Positions 5,801 through 8,382 of a stretch of 64,000 nt of DNA are shown here, piece after piece; the first letter of the stretch is position 1, and each line of letters begins with the position of its first letter. The notes under the pieces are model-generated. The model did no database searches, was not told the origin of the DNA, and saw only the letters and a list, made by a program, of their open reading frames with translations. This DNA comes from Arabidopsis thaliana (Eukaryota > Streptophyta > Magnoliopsida > Brassicales > Brassicaceae): contig NC_003076.8 of the NCBI RefSeq assembly GCF_000001735.4, positions 3,410,001-3,474,000 of the forward strand. Reading direction: 5' to 3'. The position numbers were made by a program, and so were the translations under genes.

Positions 5801-8382
5801 ACAGTGATATCCGGAACATTTGGGGTAAGAACCTGAAGATGAAATTCAAGTTAACAAAGAAATGCTTGTGCTAAAGATTAACATATATGAAGGATAACAT
5901 ATAAGCAGTATCCGGTAACTGAAGCGCTTATCATATGGAACTTTTAAATAAAAAGTTAAGTCATATGGACCAAGTTTGAAGTTTGCATACCAGCTCAGAA
6001 TTTTGATTTGGAACGGAATTCATTGGTGGACCCGATGTAACAGAAAAAATTAAATTGCAGCCCTGCCAATTAAAACAAATGAAAGCTTTTAGAGTTGCAT
6101 ATAAACAAAAGCAGCCGTCATGAACTAAATCTAAATGTATTGAAATGAAACGACGCAACAGTCACATTCAGGGATAAAATGAATCTCAAAGGAGCAACTA
6201 ACTGCCACAGACCTCCTTACTCCGGATTGCCATATGCCCAGGAGGTGGAGCTGGTAGTGCTTGTGATGGCAGAAAAACTACTTTACCCCATCCAATTTTC
6301 AGCTCATACTCATACACAATGATCCCTGTGAAATGGAGTAAAAAATATTTAGTGTCTTGCAAATCATAGCACATGCATCAAGGAAGCACATTTATTATCA
6401 AATCAGATAGTCAAATATTAATAAATTTCTATATTGTTAGGAGGCAGTAGTTTTCAACATTGTATAAATGAAGAAAGAAAAAATGGAAGCACCAAACAAA
6501 AGCAGTAACACTGACCAAACAATGAACTCTTTACGTATGCCTTCAACTGAACACGTTAAAGCAATTTCTTATAAGAAAAGTCAGGCTTTGCACTAAAGAA
6601 CCTACTAAAATATGCTGATCTGAAGTTTTAGTTAAAATGCTATCGCTATGCAGGAACCTGAGAAAACAAATCTAGAAATAATCTTCATCTTTTGCTCTTT
6701 TATCATATTGTACACTGCGAACGTATTTAAGTTGAGAACCTCGCATGAACATACACAGTTCCATACTGAACGGTATAGCTAACCTTGCATTTTCTCTTTT
6801 GCAGCTTCTCCGTCGGCTCTATTCATGAAAGCAACAAAGCCACAATGCCTTTCTCGCCTTTTCTCCTCCTCTGTTCTTGGCCACATAATTTTAACACTAG
6901 CTATTGGCCCAAATCTTCCAAAAGTCCGCAGAAGAAAATTTTCATCAACCTAAAAAAAGACAATACCACAAAAGTTTTAGGCAAGGGAAGAAAATTATGA
7001 TATATAGCTATGGAAAACAACGCAGGTATTTAAGTTGGATGAGAACAAACCTTAGATGAAAGATTCACAACATATAGATTTGTAGTTTGTGGGTCACCAT
7101 CGTCCAATGACCCTAACCTTCCACTGGGATCAAAATAATCAGGTAGCTCATCAAAGCGGCTAGATGACTGAGAGAAGTACAGCCTTAATACCAGAAAGCA
7201 GTACGTATCTCTAAATAAACAACAGTACGTATTTGGTTAAAAGTAAAGACTATGACGACATACCGTGTTATCACTATTATGGTCACGGGAATTCTCGCGA
7301 TCCTGGTTTCGCCTTTCTCTTATTTCTTGTTCACGCTTGAGCTCCTCCACAAAATGATCTATGTTTCGAGTCTTTCCCTTTTCCATCTCCTTTGATCTCT
7401 CTTCATCCCTCTAGAAAGAGGAAAAATTGTACTAATAATCAGTTAAACCATTACTTTAAATCAGGAACCAGAATAATATAAAATACTGATATGGTCTCTA
7501 ACTACTGACCTTATTCTCTGGTCCTTTACCCTTAGATGCCAATGGTGGGGGGAGAAAGGAGGGAACATACCTGTAGAAATTACATGGAAGACAATCTTCT
7601 ATATCACAAGAGCATGGACATTGGTTTTAACTTATCAAGCCATACGCATGGACAACATCTCAAAACCCACAGTTTATACTGATGAAGTAGGAAACCTCAG
7701 CTAACTGCTATGTGCAGATGACAGAAGTTTATTGTACTCCAAAACATCACAAACACAAGAGAAATGGAATTAACTCTAGCATTGTAACAAACACATCAAA
7801 GAGGCCTACACTAGAAATTAGATATGACAGAGATTGATTAATCAAAAGCAATCACAGTTATACCTACTCCCCTTCTTTGAAATGGAATCCCCATCTCTGG
7901 ACTTTTCACCTGTGATCCGTGAATGCATAGAAGAAAACGTCCATACTTTTTTTAATTAACATGTTTCTCAATGTAATAGAAACATAATTCTACCAATCTA
8001 CATGATCAAAACAATTCAATGAAACACAGAAAAACTAGCCTCCAGTTCTACTAGATGAAGCAATGTCGGGTTTCCAAGAGACTAACCTTGAGAATCAGGC
8101 TTGAGCTTATTATCATTGGGATTGATTGTCACCTCTAACAAAAGTCTTAGCTGCAGCATTATCCCCTTGAAACGATTCCACGGACTCTTGATACAGACGA
8201 GCTGTTTCATCCTCCGCTCTCTGCATTTACCATAAATTTATTCAAACCAATAGAGGCTATTGAGGATTTTGGTAGCTAAGAAAAGAAGAAACAAACCTTC
8301 TTCTTGGCTTCTTCTTCTTCTCTGTGTTTCTGGAACGGTGTTTTCTTCCAGGGTGATCGAGAAAGAACTCATCTTTCACCAT
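2898..8382 (-). CDS. U2SURP/SR140-like splicing factor (RRC1 paralogue)
   Basis: Seventeen exons join in frame: 8297-8382, 8087-8220, 7864-7909, 7510-7570, 7264-7410, 7051-7167, 6784-6949, 6213-6325, 5991-6062, 5611-5832, 5464-5522, 5283-5367, 5042-5179, 4569-4793, 3754-4490, 3361-3503 and 2898-3190. They give 947 residues. In order these are: an RRM (about 186-268, RNP-type NLYVVNLS and HCGFVAFM); a SURP/SWAP motif (about 332-385); a CID/RPR domain (about 437-590); a cwf21 segment (about 805-850); and an Arg/Asp/Ser-rich tail ending RDWRRRGMR. This order is that of human SR140/U2SURP, a U2 snRNP-associated factor, and of Arabidopsis RRC1, which acts in light-regulated alternative splicing. 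The first about 60 codons are odd: the only frame open into the conserved body starts at ATG 8382, whereas the family-type N-terminus lies in two other frames (see findings). Nuclear location is inferred. Confidence 0.85.

Follow-up and report, generated by a model that had tools for sequence, protein, structure and literature searches.

Which reading frame encodes the N-terminus of the second SR140/U2SURP gene of Arabidopsis thaliana, and how did this end of the gene come to be spread over three frames? The question arises at the 5' end of a minus-strand gene running from 8382 to 2898 in a window of 64,000 nucleotides (the whole stretch of DNA analyzed, NC_003076.8, 3,410,001 to 3,474,000). 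The reading that we consider probable is that this gene is a duplicate of RRC1 whose N-terminal module was shifted out of frame by +1 and -2 indels long after the duplication, that translation starts at ATG 8382, and that the tether formed by the module is, as predicted, lost.

Two SR140 genes in a collinear block

The gene is AT5G10800 (atSR140-2), and its duplicate partner is RRC1 (AT5G25060, atSR140-1) on the same chromosome (C5, 8.634-8.640 Mb). A 143-aa query covering linker and RRM found ten matches in the assembly, six of them in two places on C5 that correspond to the two SR140 genes; the remaining four were weaker (E 2.9e-5 to 4.3e-4), lay elsewhere and were alignments of the RRM only. 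The SR140 entries in ASRG are just At5g25060 and At5g10800, and the cwf21 part of RRC1 matches PDB entry 2e62, whose title names protein At5g25060. Scanning of viral_contigs with 245 aa of AT5G10800 yielded three pattern matches and no relatives. Order and orientation of the genes for SR140, an EMP70 protein and a NAF-domain kinase are identical near AT5G10800 and near RRC1 (79.5 kb around RRC1 searched), and these three collinear gene pairs argue for a segmental duplication; the chromosomal-duplication column of ASRG is empty for both SR140 genes.

Both genes were rebuilt as exon models with 17 exons each, giving proteins of 947 aa (AT5G10800) and 946 aa (RRC1). Exon lengths are equal in 11 of the 17, and outside exons 1 and 2 all differences are multiples of three. 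Pfam analysis of the AT5G10800 protein returned, above the cut-off and in the order found in SR140, RRM_1 (189-261), Surp (334-386), CID (451-579) and cwf21 (804-844). The two genes thus share collinear EMP70 and NAF-kinase neighbors, the 17 exons, the RRM-SURP-CID-cwf21 order and an upstream ATG in the leader; they differ in that RRC1 has its N-terminal module in one frame and that its upstream ATG opens only a four-codon uORF. The body of AT5G10800 is under constraint, with a dN/dS of 0.174 against RRC1 over 878 codons. Among 498 sites aligned with the human protein, there are 18 at which RRC1 alone matches human and 10 at which AT5G10800 alone does (p 0.18), so a faster change of the AT5G10800 body is not supported. 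The Tnb column of ASRG, taken to mean transcripts, gives 2 for AT5G10800 versus 11 for RRC1.

Two further observations concern the neighborhood. Protein identity between the EMP70 gene (14913-17842) and its block partner is 96.6% for one piece of 381 aa, which exceeds the identity of the SR140 pair in the same block. A BT1-family transporter gene (10879-13178) adjoins AT5G10800; near RRC1, two BT1 relatives (8.622-8.624 and 8.632-8.634 Mb) are encoded on the opposite strand and flank SR140 at its other end, and the duplicated block is therefore likely to have been rearranged at this place.

Reading frames and indels at the 5' end of AT5G10800

The first-pass annotation had described one frame, from ATG 8382, as the only one open into the RRM body, a second, from ATG 8372, as giving MSSFSIT, and a third as giving a string that ends in KTFVRG before a stop. 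All three frames were recovered exactly (Table 1). The frame of ATG 8382 yields the 947-aa ORF, which spans all 17 exons and closes with a stop codon whose last base is 2898; under normal splicing, the whole gene body is open from this ATG and not from the other 5' ATG, 8372.

Table 1 Features of AT5G10800 on the minus strand, positions in the 64,000-nucleotide window
Position	Strand	Feature	Evidence
8380..8382	-	ATG that starts the 947-aa ORF; homologue of the start of the RRC1 leader uORF (AGTTGGATG in both)	Leader alignment, start contexts
8297..8382	-	Exon 1 from ATG 8382 (phase 0)	Donor AAG/GTTTGT, score 10.6 (32 own donors 3.0-10.8)
8207..8372	-	29-codon ORF from ATG 8372 (ancestral start), spliced 8372-8297 + 8220-8207, stop TGA 8209-8207	Frame translation
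8348..8351	-	+1 indel site, CTGG vs RRC1 codon CGT	Alignment with RRC1
8131..8347	-	Old-frame segment KKTPFQ...KTFVRG, now out of frame, spanning intron 1	RRC1 comparison, human match
8087..8220	-	Exon 2	Splice-site scores 7.9 (acceptor) and 10.8 (donor)
8207..8210	-	ATGA, in which the stop of the 29-codon ORF overlaps body-frame AUG 8210 (Met33 of the 947-aa ORF; 915-aa product)	Frame translation
8124..8133	-	-2 indel site, GGTGACAATC vs RRC1 GGTGGGACGATA; VTINP marks the return of frame 0 to the family sequence	Alignment with RRC1
8113..8115	-	TGA ending the old frame (after DNQSQ)	Frame translation
2898..7909	-	Exons 3-17: linker, RRM, SURP, CID, cwf21 and RS regions, frame as in RRC1	Pfam hits; dN/dS vs RRC1 0.174 over 878 codons (including the end of exon 2)

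In RRC1, the corresponding residues, MSSFSIT-RKKTPFQ...KTFVRGG-TINP, are read in one continuous frame. Alignment of exons 1 and 2 of AT5G10800 with RRC1 revealed one additional nucleotide after MSSFSIT and two missing nucleotides after KTFVRG, at the two places where small indels had been proposed previously from the frames of this gene; RRC1 and human U2SURP, used for comparison, agree with a break of the ancestral frame by these two indels. Between them lie 47 old-frame codons, after which the body resumes in the frame of ATG 8382. The 47 codons align without gaps to RRC1 with 42 of 47 residues identical, and the RRC1 N-terminal peptide itself matches human U2SURP residues 98-145 (E 4.1e-6), including the KTFVRGG that had been named as a feature of animal SR140. 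The gap-free match to RRC1 together with the human match of RRC1 ruled out a chance likeness of the old-frame strings. The ancestral frame is thus still recognizable and bounded, relative to RRC1, by an indel at either end (+1 at 8351-8348, -2 within 8133-8124), and on these alignments the double frameshift in a retained duplicate is judged to be real.

The assembly was also searched in a tblastn-like manner with a module query of 106 aa. As this query was typed largely from the frames of AT5G10800, its matches to exon 2 (E 1.4e-11) and to the exon-1 piece (E 0.007) of this gene arise by construction; RRC1 matched with E 1.0e-15 in exon 2 and E 2.9e-7 in exon 1. All eight matches at E up to 10 lay in the two SR140 genes (best candidates scored). 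We infer that, among these candidates, RRC1 is the only gene found in the genome with the module in frame.

Splicing could in principle join the frames again. Start codons and splice sites around introns 1 and 2 were tried in combination. A frame extending to the RS tail resulted from 141 of the combinations tried, and 5 of the 141 contained the two module strings as well; every one of the five depends on one or more sites with scores lower than those of the modeled sites of the same type, and rescue by splicing was rejected on these grounds. The weak donor at 8132 and the weak acceptor at 8218 would together restore the old frame up to the gene body. A minor form using ATG 8382 and these two sites, which would encode 931 aa beginning MVKDEFF...KTFVRGEKSRDG..., is the best scored of the five combinations and could draw on the fact that the old frame is still conserved, and yet we regard its existence as highly improbable: the acceptor scores 0.1 (32 modeled acceptors of the two genes, 1.4-13.0) and the donor 1.7 (32 modeled donors, 3.0-10.8), with matrices that were built from the same 32 introns and therefore favor the modeled sites. 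ASRG, on few transcripts, has no alternative-splicing entry for AT5G10800.

Start codons and the age of the frame change

Rescue of the paralogue by an upstream out-of-frame ATG had been proposed to have created a new N-terminus. The frame of ATG 8382 fits the DNA, whereas the ATG itself is not new, since a homologous ATG stands in the leader of RRC1; a newly arisen start codon was therefore ruled out. The two leaders align poorly except for AGTTGGATG-TGAAA just 5' of the old start, where 14 of 15 bases are identical. In RRC1, the upstream ATG opens a uORF of four codons, ATG CTG AAA CAA TGA (MLKQ, C5 8639981-8639995), whose stop overlaps the main ATG. The distance from ATG to ATG is 11 nt in RRC1 and 10 nt in AT5G10800, a difference that the first-pass annotation did not contain; a stop of the RRC1 type is therefore out of frame in AT5G10800. 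As the same AGTTGGATG starts the RRC1 uORF, AT5G10800 seems to have taken over a uORF start as its main start, with the 1-nt leader difference as a third step besides the two coding indels. The genomic stretch upstream contains more ATGs, 209 and 289 nt before 8382.

At position -3 of a start codon, A is favored over T. ATG 8382 has T at this position (agttggATGgt) and ATG 8372 has A (tgaaagATGag), so ATG 8382 may be used weakly. The overlap of the ORF from 8372 with the main frame, which had been suggested to reduce translation, was found as described; its expected effect has to be amended, because the UGA of this ORF overlaps the in-frame AUG 8210, and reinitiation may thus follow in addition to lowered translation. 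If 8382 were mostly bypassed in favor of the 29-codon ORF, reinitiation at 8210 would make a 915-aa protein the main product, with low output and sensitivity to NMD. The start contexts, the overlap of stop and AUG, and the Tnb value of 2 against 11 for RRC1 all speak for this course of events; reinitiation after 29 codons is, however, usually inefficient in plants, and we consider it unlikely as the main route. The module would be missing from the product either way.

The conservation of the old frame bears on when the shift occurred. Over 54 codons, the old frame differs from RRC1 by 11 synonymous and 5 nonsynonymous changes (dN/dS 0.095; 9 and 5 without MSSFSIT), one of the latter converting to Ser a Phe that is common to RRC1 (YQEF) and human (YEEF). 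An equally low nonsynonymous rate was obtained for 10% of overlapping segments of the same length from the rest of the gene. Among the 16 changes in the old frame, 9 give a weak third-position bias (p 0.05) and 11 a stronger excess of synonymous changes (p 5e-5). When half of the dS between the paralogues (0.606) is assigned to the AT5G10800 branch, the probability of no more than five nonsynonymous changes is 0.04 for an old frame released from constraint over 30% of this branch and 0.0005 for one released over half of it. The old frame is thus still conserved, so the shift should be much younger than the duplication; these counts indicate either a late loss of the old frame or a use of it that persists somewhere.

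A yet more recent origin would make the frame changes a polymorphism of the reference accession (or, less likely, a sequence error), with other accessions keeping one or both old-frame parts. The few nonsynonymous changes (five or fewer, p 0.04 at 30% of the branch) would suit such an origin, which nevertheless appears rather doubtful to us since two coding indels and the leader difference would be needed in a short time.

Openness of the shifted frame is no proof of its use, because this frame was open in 42% of 20,000 synonymous resamplings; as proof of selection it was therefore discarded. The same 42% would suit a decaying pseudogene whose frame is open by luck, as would the low Tnb value (2, RRC1 11) and the 18 versus 10 sites of 498 agreeing with human (p 0.18). 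Against this stand 17 exons without a stop, the frame kept after exon 2, the dN/dS of 0.174 over 878 codons, and the naming of AT5G10800 as stress-induced in a passage of PMC7868970, where it is listed as up-regulated by various stresses. Decay of the gene is accordingly very unlikely in our view.

In titles and the beginnings of abstracts, the literature on frameshifts with uORFs or duplication names neither AT5G10800 nor RRC1. As far as described there, paralogues with a frameshifted coding segment resemble AT5G10800 in that an ancestral coding piece is read in another frame after indels; they differ from it in that here the start codon derives from a uORF start and the altered piece is a defined interaction module. 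The relevant passages of papers that mention At5g10800 do not address its N-terminus; two primary papers on RRC1 (PMC9636961, PMC6751115) lay outside this search.

The N-terminal module and its human counterpart

The bridging module was newly described in human U2SURP in 2026, in an assignment that is partly predicted and called tentative in the passages available (PMC13332222, PMC13041897). A preprint assigns residues 115-142, tentatively and in density, to a module bridging SF3B1 and DHX15 (PMC13041897). In crosslink-guided predictions, a helix of residues 100-127 lies on HEAT repeats 4-5 of SF3B1, and residues 133-163 form a hairpin on the RecA2 sheet of DHX15 (PMC13332222). The same source ties the SURP domain to CHERP and the CID to SPF45.

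The AT5G10800 protein aligns from residue 80 to 589 with human residues 154-679 (E 4e-100; PDB 9r8v, 9ze0, 9ze3 for the human protein), and RRC1 from 8 to 579 with human 92-676. Unlike the human protein, AT5G10800 has in its open frame no counterpart of human 98-138, which comprises most of the module 115-142; the corresponding codons are present out of frame within 8347-8131. KTFVRG ends at human residue 138 (counted on the alignment), and only the following TIN (140-142) of the module is kept. By descent and body, AT5G10800 is on this comparison a member of the SR140 family with one feature lost; a fully working SR140 is not claimed. Its protein is predicted to lack the SF3B1-DHX15 tether.

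In the course of events that we favor, ribosomes would start at ATG 8382 and make the 947-aa product; some would scan on to 8372, make a 29-aa peptide and may restart at AUG 8210, giving 915 aa. Either product would keep RRM, SURP, CID, cwf21 and RS regions and have the module helix and the KTFVRG strand replaced, the human counterparts of which are described as docking on SF3B1 HEAT repeats 4-5 and the DHX15 RecA2 sheet (PMC13332222). Arabidopsis RRC1 is reported to act with SFPS and SWAP1 in light-regulated splicing (PMC10605401). Through SURP and CID, the AT5G10800 protein could still join partners of the SFPS/SWAP1 type, and it would no longer form the usual bridge between SF3B1 and the Prp43/DHX15 helicase. 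More speculatively, and with little confidence on our part, AT5G10800 might be a natural separation-of-function factor: the captured uORF start would have removed the SF3B1-DHX15 tether, and the stress-induced product would compete with RRC1 for SFPS/SWAP1-type partners without recruiting Prp43/DHX15, with the effect that spliceosome proofreading or phytochrome-linked splicing would be dampened in stressed plants.

Should the plant translate the open frame, Arabidopsis would possess an SR140 without the DHX15/SF3B1 bridge beside an intact copy, and thus a plant counterpart that offers a natural test of the human module. The locus would also illustrate clearly how a uORF start can turn into a main start, at a stage at which the old frame is still readable.

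The new frame keeps TIN after LLLEV, and since the contact of the human protein with DHX15 is made by the main chain, a strand could still form at this place. For the new-frame exon 2 alone, AlphaFold2 predicted two strands together with a helix spanning residues 19-37 (mean pLDDT 67.7; in this input, residues 1-4 and part of residue 5 were intron-coded), and for the old-frame piece alone one helix (pLDDT 74.4). Both are short single-sequence models of little weight, from which a substitute helix in the new N-terminus is conceivable.
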